Position numbers and translations under genes: made by a program
Part shown: positions 2,616 through 8,679 of the stretch, in pieces
Numbering within the stretch: position 1 is the first letter of the stretch
Layout of the letters: each line of letters begins with the position of its first letter
Notes under the pieces: model-generated
Database searches by the model: none
The model's input: only the letters and a program-made list of their open reading frames with translations
Told to the model about the DNA's origin: nothing
NCBI GenBank assembly: GCA_029939235.1
Contig: JAOZTG010000007.1
Location: 9,142 to 42,463, forward strand
From: Flavobacteriaceae bacterium
GTDB taxonomy: Bacteria; Bacteroidota; Bacteroidia; Flavobacteriales; Flavobacteriaceae
Direction: 5' to 3'
Length of the DNA stretch: 33,322 bases

Positions 2616-3248
2616 TTAAGAATTAGTATTTGACATTGCAGATAACATTCCGCCATAAACTCCATTCAATGAAGATAAGTTGGTTGCCAAAGATTCCATT
2701 TGTTCTTTTAAATGCTCTGCATTTTCTATAGTTTCATTATTAAGATCTGCCTGACGTTGTGCATTCTCTTTTTGAATCATATACATACTGTTTAATGATT
2801 CCAATTCAATTGCAGCAATTGATAATTGTTCACTATAACGCGTTGATGCTGTAATTGAATCTGCTGCCGGAGCTATGTTTTCAGCTGCACCTGCAAAACT
2901 TTGTATGCCGGTAGCAAGTCTGTCCATTTTTTCAGCATCTAAATTAGCATTTGCCAGCATCTCATCTAATTTTTGAGACAACAACCCTTCAGCATCCTGA
3001 GTTTCTTGTAATTCATTTGCTTCACCACCTGCAAGTTCAGGGTAAACTTTTGCCCAATCCAGGTCATCATCAACCGGTTCAAATGCAGATAGTGCAAAAA
3101 CTGCTGCTTCAACTACCATACCTATGGTTAACATAATTGTACCTCCCGGGTAATGCGCGATCTTAAAAAGCGCCCCTAAAATTACTACTGCTGCCCCAAG
3201 ACCATAAGCCATGTTGAACATTTTTTTCTTTGCGTGTGATTGTGCCAT
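2616..3248 (-). CDS. gldL: Gliding motility / type IX secretion motor protein GldL (PorL)
   Basis: 210 aa; two N-terminal TM helices (MFNMAYGLGAAVVILGALFKIAHYPGG...MLTIGMVVEAAVFALSAFEP) then coiled-coil; synteny. Confidence 0.94.
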   Translation of the reverse strand: MAQSHAKKKMFNMAYGLGAAVVILGALFKIAHYPGGTIMLTIGMVVEAAVFALSAFEPVDDDLDWAKVYPELAGGEANELQETQDAEGLLSQKLDEMLANANLDAEKMDRLATGIQSFAGAAENIAPAADSITASTRYSEQLSIAAIELESLNSMYMIQKENAQRQADLNNETIENAEHLKEQMESLATNLSSLNGVYGGMLSAMSNTNS

Positions 3249-3305: not shown

Positions 3306-4709
3306 TTATTTATTTTTTTCTTTCATTTTTGTTCCCATATAATCCTGAACAGTTCTAAAGCCGATATAACTTCTGGCTGAATCACCATATTCATAGTCAC
3401 GTGTACCTACTTCTAAAAAGTATGCCACATCTTTCCATGATCCTCCTCGAATTACTTTACGTTGATTCGTATTATCTTCAACATTAGGGTTGATTGTTGA
3501 TCCTAAGTAATAAGATGATGGATTATAAGCTGTATTGGTCCACTCTGCAACATTTCCAGACATATTATATAGTCCGTAATCATTTGCATTATATGATTTT
3601 GCTTCTACTGTATACAATGCGCCGTCTGCTGCATAATTACCTCTTTCCGGCTTAAAGTTTGCTAAGAAACAACCTCTGTCTGTTGTGGTATAAGGTCCTC
3701 CCCAAGGATATTTAGCATATTCCAAACCTCCACGGGCTGCATATTCCCATTCTGCTTCAGTTGGTAATCTAAAACTTGGCTCTCTACCTGATCCTTTCTT
3801 TCTAGTTGCCAAATAATTATTACGTTTATCGGTTCGGTAATCGCAAAAAGCTTTTGCCTGAGGCCATGATACTCCAACTACCGGATAATCATTATAAGCC
3901 TGGTGCCAAAAATAATCTTGATGCATAGGATCATTATAAGAGTAATTAAAGTCTTTGATCCACACAGCAGTATCAGGATACACAGCAACTTCTACTTTTT
4001 TCAATAGATCTTTTGCTGATCCGTTGTATTTAACCGCTTTTTCTCTGTCAAAAGTTAAATAAGTGTAAATCAGTTTTTTGGTATCAATTTTTCTTTTTCT
4101 ACCCATTGATTCTTCAATTGGAAGATACATGCTATCCATTGCTTCTGCATAATATTCATCAGGAAAATCATTAGTATCCCATACAAGATCCACATCCCAG
4201 TTTAAATAACGGCCTTCTGTTGGCGAATTGATATCACCCAGACTACCATAGTTATCCATCATATATTTATAATATGCATTATCGGTACTATCCTGTTCAG
4301 TAAAAGCATATTTAGAAATCCCACTGGCATCACCTTTCTTTTGCTCAATGGCTTCTCCACCTCCCATATTTGCTTCTTCGGCCAGCATTGCCAACTTAGT
4401 TCTTAATATGGAGTCTCTTACTCTATAAACAAAACTTCTGTATTCACCATTGGTGATCTCTGTTTCATCCATATAATAAGGTGTAACTGTTACAGTACGT
4501 GTTGGAGCACTAAACGAACCGGCAACATCTTCATCGGCTTTACCCATTGTAAAAGCACCTCCCGGAATCAAAACCATACCATAAGGTTTTTCGGGAAAGA
4601 ATTTTTTGTTTGTTTTCGCACTTACTAATTGTCCTCTATCACTACCAGATTTACAACTGGTGAATAAGGCAACTGTGATAATTAATGCAACTAAGGTTAA
4701 CTTTTTCAT
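3306..4709 (-). CDS. gldK: Gliding motility / type IX secretion lipoprotein GldK (PorK), FGE-sulfatase-like fold
   Basis: FGE-like motifs (MVLIPGGAFTMG, PVVGVSWPQAKAFCDYR, FRLPTEAEWEYAARGG, NVAEWTN, VIRGGSWKD, GFR). Lipoprotein signal MKKLTLVALIITVALFTSC suggests the start is the internal ATG at 4709, not 4739. Confidence 0.93.
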   Translation of the reverse strand: MKKLTLVALIITVALFTSCKSGSDRGQLVSAKTNKKFFPEKPYGMVLIPGGAFTMGKADEDVAGSFSAPTRTVTVTPYYMDETEITNGEYRSFVYRVRDSILRTKLAMLAEEANMGGGEAIEQKKGDASGISKYAFTEQDSTDNAYYKYMMDNYGSLGDINSPTEGRYLNWDVDLVWDTNDFPDEYYAEAMDSMYLPIEESMGRKRKIDTKKLIYTYLTFDREKAVKYNGSAKDLLKKVEVAVYPDTAVWIKDFNYSYNDPMHQDYFWHQAYNDYPVVGVSWPQAKAFCDYRTDKRNNYLATRKKGSGREPSFRLPTEAEWEYAARGGLEYAKYPWGGPYTTTDRGCFLANFKPERGNYAADGALYTVEAKSYNANDYGLYNMSGNVAEWTNTAYNPSSYYLGSTINPNVEDNTNQRKVIRGGSWKDVAYFLEVGTRDYEYGDSARSYIGFRTVQDYMGTKMKEKNK

Positions 4710-4855
4710 AATTTTTACTTTTCTAATAAAACTCGGCAATTGTTATTTTTAAATAATTTACTTTACTGAAAAGATTGGACGTAAAAAAACATAAACCAAT
4801 CTTAAAAAAAATACTTTGTTCCCTAAGAACGTTAAAAAAACTTCTTTAGTGTATT

Positions 4856-6013
4856 CTAATTTAATTTTCTAAAGTTTTTTAACCACCTTTCTGGAAATAC
4901 CTGATTATTTGCTGTCAGGTAATCTTGATAGGTACATGGTATTAACGTGGAATTCTTATTTTTATTACTAGGCAGGGTAATCTCCATCCACCATCTTTCA
5001 CTTTTGTCACTCTTATAAAAGTTAATAATTTCATCTTCAACTAATACAATATATTTTTTATAATTCTTTTTCGATTCGAAAGGATATTCTTTTATTCTTA
5101 AATTAAATCCTTCCAAAAAATACCAGATCATTTGGGCAATTAAATGTGCCGTTTGATCCCTACTATCAAACTTTACATTGAACTCATATATCCCAAAAGA
5201 GGAAACTTTTCTGCTAATTCCGGCATATCTGGCTATACTGCAAATTTCTTCTCCATAAAATCCATTAGGTACCGCATTGTTATTTGCTGGTGCATCACTA
5301 CTTCTAATTGCACCAATATCAATACTAACAATATCCGCATCACGAATAATTGGCTCTACCATAGAAAGATTACTTGTCACCTGCCCTAACCTATAAGAAT
5401 CAAAATACAGCTTTTCCAACAAATCAATTTCTTCCTGTGAATTGAAAAATGTCTGAAATCCAATATTGCTATAGTTCAACAGATTGTTTGGCTTTTCCAT
5501 TACAATCTTGTGCAGATAATTTTCAGAAGTGATGGATTGCTCCATTTCACCCAAATCAAATTTATTATCAACAACAACCATATTTACAGGACTCTCCATG
5601 CTATCATATCCTCTATAATTTGCATAGGTAATGTCCTGACTACCACCTATGATAATAGGTGTAATTTCTTTTTTCAATAATAAAGATATTATTTCCTGCA
5701 CAACAAAAAAAGTATCTTCTACATCATTTCCCTGTGGAATATTTCCCAAGTCAACAATGTTAGAATGCCAGTTTCCCGGAAACATTTGGTACAAGTATTT
5801 TCGAATATTCTCTAATCCTTTTCCTGTACCCACATTATCAACTGCATTTCTTCCTTCCAAAACTCCAATAATTGCAATTTGCACATTATCTAAATCGGGA
5901 ATTCCATTTTGTTTTGTGTGTTTATCAATGTTTTTTCCCAGAATCAGATCGGAAAGCAAAGTAGTATGCGCAACAGCAATTTCTTCTACCGGTAATAGAA
6001 AACTTAAACTCAT
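4856..6013 (-). CDS. Arginase/formimidoylglutamase-fold protein with degenerate metal-binding motifs
   Basis: 385 aa; arginase-family landmarks in order: PIIIGGSQDITYANYRG (GGDHS position), MVVVDNKFDLGE (DAHxD position), IVSIDIGAIRSSDAP (SxDxDxxDP position), PNGFYGEE. Confidence 0.8.
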   Translation of the reverse strand: MSLSFLLPVEEIAVAHTTLLSDLILGKNIDKHTKQNGIPDLDNVQIAIIGVLEGRNAVDNVGTGKGLENIRKYLYQMFPGNWHSNIVDLGNIPQGNDVEDTFFVVQEIISLLLKKEITPIIIGGSQDITYANYRGYDSMESPVNMVVVDNKFDLGEMEQSITSENYLHKIVMEKPNNLLNYSNIGFQTFFNSQEEIDLLEKLYFDSYRLGQVTSNLSMVEPIIRDADIVSIDIGAIRSSDAPANNNAVPNGFYGEEICSIARYAGISRKVSSFGIYEFNVKFDSRDQTAHLIAQMIWYFLEGFNLRIKEYPFESKKNYKKYIVLVEDEIINFYKSDKSERWWMEITLPSNKNKNSTLIPCTYQDYLTANNQVFPERWLKNFRKLN

Positions 6014-6186: not shown

Positions 6187-8679
6187 TTATTTTTTCTTTT
6201 TTCTAACTGCTTTTTTTCTGGTTACTTTCTTTTTAGGAGCATTTTTGGCAATGATATCCTTCACTTCCTCCAGAGTCAATGCCGGGGCATCAATCGTTTT
6301 AGGAATCTCAATTTTTACTTTTCCCTGTAAAACATTATGTCTTCCCCATCTGGCTTTTTCTACTCTAATTCCTTCTTCTTCCCAGTTATGAACAACTTTA
6401 TCGATCTCCTTTTGTTTTTTCGTTTCGATCAGCTCAACAATATCTTCATAACTCAAATTATCAAAATCATATTTTCGATTTACATTGATAAACATATTGT
6501 TCCACTTGATAAACGGACCAAACCTTCCAACACCCTTTTGAACTGGTAAATTTTCATATTCGGCAATAGGAGCATCAGCTTCTCTTTTTGCTTCTATTAA
6601 CTCAATTGCCCTATCCATATCAACTGACAATGGATTTTCTCCTTTTGACAAGGAAACGAACATCTTATCAAATCTTATATATGGGCCAAACCTACCACTT
6701 GAAACTATCACATCAACATCTTCATATTGTCCCAATGTTTTTGGCAATTGGAAAAGATCCATCGCTTCTTCATAAGTAATATTTCCTAAAGTCTGTTCTC
6801 CCTGCAAACTGGCAAACTTAGGTTTTTCTTCATCTGTTGCTTCACCAATTTGAACCATCGCACCAAATCTGCCCAATCTTGCATAAACATTTTTACCTGA
6901 TACAGGATCTACTCCTAAAATTCTTTCTCCTTTAGCTCTCTCTGCATTTTCTTTAACATCTTCCACTTTTAAATGAAATTCAGTATAGAACTCTTTGATC
7001 ATCTCGATCCAGTGTCCTTTTCCTTCTGCAATATCATCAAACTCCTTCTCTACTCTGGCAGTAAAACTAAAATCTAAAACATTTGAAAAATTAGCAACTA
7101 AAAAGTCATTTACAATTTTACCAATATCCGTTGGAATTAATTTACCCTTATCAGCTCCAACCTTTTCAGTCAAACTATTGGTAACTACATTATCATTTTC
7201 AAGTCTTATCTGCGTATAGGCCCTTTCCTTCCCTTCAACAGCCCCTTTGGTAACATATTCTCGTCTTTGGATAGTAGATATAGTCGGAGCATAAGTGGAT
7301 GGTCTTCCTATTCCCAATTCCTCTAATTGCTTCACTAAAGAAGCTTCTGTAAAACGATACGGAGCTTTGGTGTACCTTTCGGTAGCTGTGATAAAATTGT
7401 TATGTAGAATTTCATTTACGCTCAATTTTGGCAACATACCTTCCTGCTCTTCCTCATCATTATCTGTACCTTCTAAATAAACCTTTAAAAAACCTTCAAA
7501 TGTTATTACCTCACCATTGGCAGTAAAAACCTTTTGATTTTTATCATTGGTGATTTTTACATTTGTTCTTTCCAATTGGGCATCACTCATTTGTGATGCA
7601 ATGGTTCTTTTCCAGATAAGATCATACAATCTTGCCTGATCATTCTCCACATGAACTGTTCGGGTACTCATATTTGTAGGACGAATGGCTTCGTGCGCTT
7701 CCTGAGCTCCTTTTGATTTTGTTACAAAATTCCTAGGGTTGCTATATGTGCTTCCATACGATGTTGTAATTTCTTCCTGTGCTGCATTTTTTGCATCATT
7801 GGATAGATTTACACTATCTGTTCTCATGTAAGTTATCAACCCTGCTTCATATAATCTTTGTGCAACAACCATTGTTTTTCCAACTGGAAAATATAATTTT
7901 CTTGAAGCTTCCTGTTGTAAAGTAGAAGTTGTAAATGGTGCTGCAGGTGTTTTTTTTGCTGGCTTGGTTGTTAGGTCGTCTACTTTAAATTCAGCAGAAA
8001 TACAGGAATTCAAAAATACTTCCGCTTCCTTTTTCGTTTCAAAATTCCTAGGCAATTTAGCCTTGAATCTTTTACCATTGCTATTGATAAACTCAGCTAC
8101 AACTCTGTAAGATGCAACTGCATTGAATTTTTCTATTTCACGTTCTCGCTCTACGATCAATCTTACAGCAACGGATTGCACTCTACCAGCCGATAATCCG
8201 CTTTTTACTTTTCTCCAAAGAACCGGTGATAATTCATAACCCACCAATCTATCTAACACCCTTCTGGCTTGTTGTGCATTTACAAGGTTATAATCAATAC
8301 TTCTTGGGCTTTCAACAGCTTTTAAGATAGCTTTTTTGGTGATCTCATGAAAAACAATTCTTTTTGTTTTATCATCAGTTAATTTTAGTTGTTCATACAA
8401 ATGCCATGCAATTGCTTCTCCCTCACGATCCTCATCACTTGCTAACCAAACCGTATCAGCTTTTTTTGCTAAAGATTTTAATTTTTTTACAACTGCTTTT
8501 TTATCTGCAGAAACACTGTAATTTGGTTTAAAATCTCCGTCTACATTAACTCCTAATTCTTTGGATGGTAAATCAGCTATATGACCAAAACTAGATTCTA
8601 CCACAAAATCTTTTCCTAAAAATTTCTCAATGGTTTTTGCTTTTGCCGGTGACTCTACAATTACTAAATTCTTCGCCAT
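6187..8679 (-). CDS. topA: DNA topoisomerase I
   Basis: 830 aa; MAKNLVIVESPAKAKTIEKFLG Toprim start, DEDREGEAIAWHL, ITYMRTDSVNLS catalytic Tyr motif, C-terminal GRFG repeats and Lys-rich tail. Confidence 0.98.
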   Translation of the reverse strand: MAKNLVIVESPAKAKTIEKFLGKDFVVESSFGHIADLPSKELGVNVDGDFKPNYSVSADKKAVVKKLKSLAKKADTVWLASDEDREGEAIAWHLYEQLKLTDDKTKRIVFHEITKKAILKAVESPRSIDYNLVNAQQARRVLDRLVGYELSPVLWRKVKSGLSAGRVQSVAVRLIVEREREIEKFNAVASYRVVAEFINSNGKRFKAKLPRNFETKKEAEVFLNSCISAEFKVDDLTTKPAKKTPAAPFTTSTLQQEASRKLYFPVGKTMVVAQRLYEAGLITYMRTDSVNLSNDAKNAAQEEITTSYGSTYSNPRNFVTKSKGAQEAHEAIRPTNMSTRTVHVENDQARLYDLIWKRTIASQMSDAQLERTNVKITNDKNQKVFTANGEVITFEGFLKVYLEGTDNDEEEQEGMLPKLSVNEILHNNFITATERYTKAPYRFTEASLVKQLEELGIGRPSTYAPTISTIQRREYVTKGAVEGKERAYTQIRLENDNVVTNSLTEKVGADKGKLIPTDIGKIVNDFLVANFSNVLDFSFTARVEKEFDDIAEGKGHWIEMIKEFYTEFHLKVEDVKENAERAKGERILGVDPVSGKNVYARLGRFGAMVQIGEATDEEKPKFASLQGEQTLGNITYEEAMDLFQLPKTLGQYEDVDVIVSSGRFGPYIRFDKMFVSLSKGENPLSVDMDRAIELIEAKREADAPIAEYENLPVQKGVGRFGPFIKWNNMFINVNRKYDFDNLSYEDIVELIETKKQKEIDKVVHNWEEEGIRVEKARWGRHNVLQGKVKIEIPKTIDAPALTLEEVKDIIAKNAPKKKVTRKKAVRKKKK

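Follow-up and report, generated by a model that had tools for sequence, protein, structure and literature searches.

The window, by which we mean the whole stretch of 33,322 nucleotides analysed here, carries on its minus strand, at 4856..6013, a gene for a 385-residue arginase-fold protein (P0001, from the ORF list and a Pfam match), called ARG in the following. It is flanked upstream by topA (6187..8679, Pfam match), at a distance of 173 bp, and downstream by gldK (3306..4709; TIGR03525, 571.7 bits against a cut-off of 350), gldL (2616-3248), gldM (1020-2564) and gldN (111-1007), the last three identified by profile matches. All six genes lie on the minus strand in the order topA, ARG, gldK, gldL, gldM, gldN, and the location directly upstream of gldKLMN, to which the first-pass annotation had drawn attention, is as it described. 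The computed open reading frame of gldK (3306-4739) opens with TTG, but translation more likely begins from the ATG at 4709, which gives a product with a lipoprotein signal ending in TSC. Between ARG and gldK, a perfect 8-bp inverted repeat (AAGATTGG/CCAATCTT, window 4771-4803) is followed by TTTT. An 8-bp hairpin of some kind is present in this interval at 23 of 78 related loci, where shuffling would lead one to expect 13.8, a weak excess.

The protein matches the Pfam Arginase family (PF00491) with 70.9 bits, well above the cut-off of 22, and the NCBIfam hutG profile (TIGR01227) with 91.9 bits. The latter is far below the cut-off of 229, so that by NCBI's own rule the protein would not be called a formimidoylglutamase. 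An AlphaFold model of the whole chain was confident (mean pLDDT 91.7, pTM 0.92) and had as its top Foldseek match the formiminoglutamase of T. cruzi (4mxr, E 9e-17, TMt 0.83); the nearest folds overall were formiminoglutamases and metformin hydrolase. Model and Foldseek searches thus agree on the arginase alpha/beta fold that had been assigned from the letters alone. No signal peptide was evident on inspection by eye, and we infer a cytoplasmic location. Between close pairs of Flavobacteriaceae the median dN/dS of the gene is 0.245, indicative of purifying selection; on shared pairs, this is about the value of gldL and higher than those of topA and gldK. The gene is intact and working, and we rejected a recent pseudogene in view of its conservation across the class together with the dN/dS of about 0.24.

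In rat arginase, site A of the binuclear metal center is formed by H101, D124, D128 and D232, and site B by D124, H126, D232 and D234. We compared these ligands in an alignment to canonical ureohydrolases, using arginase-I numbering. Eleven canonical relatives all have histidine at 101 and 126 and aspartate at 124, 232 and 234; D128 is present in ten of them and replaced by asparagine in the remaining one. The window protein reads Q, D, K, D, D, G at the six positions and is thus without the full ligand set of the two sites. The substitutions fall into the three family motifs, all of which are present in the altered form originally reported: GGSQD (residues 123-127, 5633..5647, minus strand), with H101 changed to glutamine; DNKFD (residues 149-153, 5555..5569, minus strand), with D124 and D128 retained and H126 changed to lysine; and SIDIGAIRSSDAP (residues 230-242, 5288..5326, minus strand), with D232 retained and D234 changed to glycine. 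The replacement of both histidines and one aspartate, read from the sequence at first pass, is therefore correct.

The further conclusion, that the metal site had been lost, holds for one half of the site. None of 135 aligned members of the clade described below combines H126 with D234. In variability these two columns stand at the 93rd and 69th percentile, respectively, which puts the former within the most variable 7% of the domain. In contrast, the aspartate triad of site A (D124, D128, D232) is complete in 108 of the 135, and its columns lie at the 9th to 14th percentile, that is, among the most conserved 9-14% of the domain. Position 101 is only moderately conserved (Q in 90 members, H in 19, with family f8 as an example, N in 12). 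The loss of the first histidine, which had been taken as evidence, is confirmed as a change to glutamine but is not diagnostic: the formimidoylglutamase of B. subtilis (3m1r) reads GGDNS, with asparagine at this position, and the wild-type enzyme of T. cruzi also has asparagine there, as can be read from the PDB title 'N114H variant'. Since active formimidoylglutamases can have asparagine here, a change of H101 proves little by itself. The diagnostic losses in the alignment are those of H126 and D234, and across the clade site B is destroyed and site A partly retained. Even the triad has been lost in places: family f2 reads N-S-S-N at H101, D124, D128 and D232 and has nonetheless retained the gene.

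Of 395 genomes sampled from the class Bacteroidia, 366 encode the protein family, and proteins of the window's type form a single monophyletic clade (support 100) apart from the eleven canonical relatives. As a conserved reading frame under purifying selection, belonging to a class-wide clade with a broken site B, ARG qualifies as a pseudo-ureohydrolase. The clade has also gained features of its own. Residues 308-385 (4859..5092, minus strand) form a clade-specific C-terminal module of about 80 residues, with four strands and two helices; the extension reaches through residue 377 in all 135 degenerate members but in none of the eleven canonical relatives. Within it, F332, W341, W342, C360, Y365, A368 and P374 are conserved at 96-100% in the clade, and the module is predicted to fold when modelled alone (pLDDT 80). 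Searches with Pfam, PDB sequences and Foldseek brought up nothing credible as to its identity, and no PDB structure matched it with an E-value below 0.8. In the arginase domain, Q187, E220, P221 and R224 are conserved at 98-99% in the clade, and the motif E220-P221-x-x-R224 (5342..5356, minus strand), which canonical enzymes do not conserve, is a candidate for a new functional site.

We surveyed loci that represent 66 family codes of the class, and in 33 of these ARG immediately precedes gldK or porP-gldK (a count that includes f50, whose contig stops after porP), most commonly in a block topA-ARG-(porP)-gldK-gldL-gldM-gldN. In about half of the 66 families it is located elsewhere and unlinked. 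The Flavobacteriaceae, the family of the window, have no porP between ARG and gldK, and 78 of 80 named loci of this family show the pair ARG-gldK, the other two being cut off by contig ends; the same block was found in further family codes of the window's order. The adjacency to gldK in the window is thus an instance of a widely conserved arrangement, of the kind expected for a T9SS or gliding component. Parts of the block also occur separately, as topA-ARG without gldK in f2, f54, f57, f67 and f82 (where the contig stops soon after) and as ARG-porP-gldK without topA in f6, f56 and f84. The spacing is uneven: topA and ARG often overlap and are separated by a median of 8 bp in 77 loci of Flavobacteriaceae and of 30 bp in 41 loci from across the class, whereas the median gaps from ARG to gldK and porP are 154 and 142 bp. 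The tight pair is therefore topA-ARG, and gldKLMN probably has its own leader. These gene orders show ARG to be an ancestral neighbor of both topA and porP-gldKLMN.

A second T9SS-related neighborhood exists in f5 and f86 (L057, L058, L060, L124), where ARG stands head-on to murF-gldJ(-porP); the f5 copies are strongly divergent. At 15 loci (L032, L033, L035, L044, L052, L125, L127, L131, L135-L137, L139, L143, L145, L150), a gene for an NAD-dependent epimerase/dehydratase of about 320-360 residues (PF01370) lies upstream of ARG, mostly on the opposite strand. This neighbor recurs in lineages in which ARG adjoins neither topA nor gldK.

The phyletic distribution of ARG does not match that of type IX secretion (T9SS). 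Among 339 genomes with at least 90% completeness, which were counted by hand and, being related, are not independent, 316 have both ARG and GldM, 6 have neither, 3 have ARG without GldM and 14 have GldM without ARG. ARG is absent from 14 complete T9SS-positive genomes of the class sample, and in one single-contig genome of the window's order (G604, locus L247) the block topA-porP-gldKLMN is intact, with ARG naturally missing between topA and porP. Conversely, ARG is present in G470, a 99% complete genome that yielded no match for GldK, GldM or SprA. A genome with the same genus code (G002, family f3) has a GldM match and no SprA match, and T9SS may possibly have been reduced in this genus. ARG is therefore neither needed for the retention of T9SS nor lost whenever T9SS is lost. 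Of the proposed link to secretion and gliding, the wide gene linkage stands and an obligatory role does not; judged from gene order and presence, ARG and the T9SS genes have a genuine association of ancient origin that is not obligatory.

Relative to ureohydrolase chemistry, we regard ARG with great confidence as a pseudoenzyme, given the class-wide state of its ligands, and it likely works by binding and not by new chemistry. That ARG is functionally connected with the biogenesis of T9SS or the envelope is more tentative, a proposal that we place slightly below an even chance. The explanation that in our view accounts best for the data combines these parts: ARG would be a pseudo-ureohydrolase that is conserved for a binding function, plausibly one in the biogenesis of the envelope or of T9SS, and as a whole we give this about even chances of being right. 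The hydrolysis of guanidino or formimino groups would have been given up for binding, with a candidate conserved pocket, formed by the aspartate triad, Q187 and E220/R224, holding a ligand or a single metal, and with the C-terminal module contacting a protein partner. This partner would most plausibly belong to the envelope machinery, for example the T9SS motor (GldKLMN, PorP) or GldJ, next to whose genes ARG is found in independent places. As the T9SS genes can be retained in its absence, any effect of ARG on T9SS would be modulatory. The T9SS-positive genomes that have no ARG, together with G470, argue against a dedicated part of the system. It seems rather unlikely that ARG is a new cytoplasmic accessory or regulator of the T9SS motor, derived from a ureohydrolase by the loss of one metal site and the gain of a partner-binding tail.

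The spacing of the genes, which makes the tie of ARG to topA closer than that to gldK, counts against this best explanation and in favor of its main rival, a housekeeping role in which the pseudoenzyme would be linked to topA or to general metabolism and its adjacency to T9SS genes would reflect a slowly decaying ancestral order topA-ARG-porP-gldKLMN. The short or overlapping topA-ARG junctions, the five families with topA-ARG and no gldK, the retention of ARG in G470 and the absence of linkage in about half of the families all fit such a role. Slow decay does not as readily account for the three families in which ARG-porP-gldK persists without topA, nor for the recurrence of the gldJ neighborhood in f5 and f86, and we regard the housekeeping role as possible, though we would not expect it to hold. 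New chemistry is a further alternative, for which the retained triad leaves room: a mononuclear enzyme could operate at site A ([Q/H/N]-Asp-Asp-Asp) with the help of Q187, E220 and R224. Histone deacetylases use site B, so that this would be roughly the reverse of their arrangement. The slow change of the triad columns while those of site B drift, and the 99% conservation of Q187, E220 and R224, would suit an active center; however, whole lineages such as f2 have dropped the triad and kept the gene, and the column of the first ligand is conserved just moderately, which makes mononuclear catalysis improbable.

Two readings remain closer to established arginase-family functions. ARG could be the organism's formimidoylglutamase with an unusual site, given that its nearest characterised folds are formimidoylglutamases and that the window's own genome has hutH and hutI and ARG as its sole arginase-family match. 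We dropped the argument from the sole match, as the completeness of this draft genome is 90.6% and the contig with its hut genes stops 453 bp past hutI, the very place where a relative (G029) encodes a canonical hutG with all six ligands. Further relatives (L064, L066, L070) likewise have a canonical hutG inside the hut cluster, and all of these genomes encode ARG in addition, by which the reading is already refuted for them. The gene in the window is found between topA and gldK and not with hutH and hutI. We rejected a working HutG on account of the metal site, the hutG profile score and the separate hutG of the relatives, in keeping with the original judgment that ARG is probably not a functional formimidoylglutamase; we give this reading next to no credence. 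Marginally less improbable, and still very much so, is that ARG serves as the non-catalytic partner of an active arginase-family enzyme, for which the MetCb subunit of metformin hydrolase, the partner of MetCa, provides a precedent (PMC11271267). We found no second arginase-family gene beside ARG in the examined loci, and in G603 (two contigs, 99% complete), G600 and G470 it is the only gene of the family, so that it cannot need a catalytic partner from the family there. A pseudo-subunit is therefore disfavored.

In the open literature, to which the search was limited, we found no published description of this protein, no mutant or interaction data tying it to T9SS, and no paper that connects any member of the arginase family with gldK or T9SS. 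A study of gliding genes in F. columnare, in which gldKLMN is handled as an operon, makes no mention of ARG beside it (PMC5879114). In about half of the families ARG borders the genes of a rotary motor for secretion and gliding; it is easily mistaken for a gene of nitrogen metabolism, and it could show how an enzyme of metabolism came to serve in the control of the cell envelope or of motility.

With the GldKLMN/PorP cluster, ARG shares a conserved neighborhood in 33 of the 66 sampled families, but it is not co-extensive with T9SS and lies about 142-154 bp from porP or gldK. HutG (3m1r, 1xfk, 4mxr) has the arginase fold, provides the best sequence and structure matches and has the equivalents of Asp 124, 128 and 232 in common with ARG, which differs by the lack of H126 and D234, an additional C-terminal module, a location outside the hut cluster and a score below the TIGR01227 cut-off. 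Metal-free members of the arginase family are known, and their functions have been called elusive except for that of MetCb, the pseudoenzyme partner of MetCa (PMC11271267). MetCb/MfmB (8x3g, 8snf, 8ryi) resembles ARG in being an arginase-family pseudoenzyme with altered ligands, but it requires the catalytic MetCa, whereas several genomes with ARG have no candidate partner. The arginase-like protein of T. brucei (Hai et al. 2015, cited in PMC11271267) likewise combines a conserved arginase fold with the lack of a binuclear manganese cluster; it belongs to another lineage, and the ARG clade would differ from it in the retained aspartate triad and in the new conserved module at the C-terminus. 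Pseudo-arginases have so far been known only as scattered cases, and ARG represents one that is retained across a whole bacterial class.
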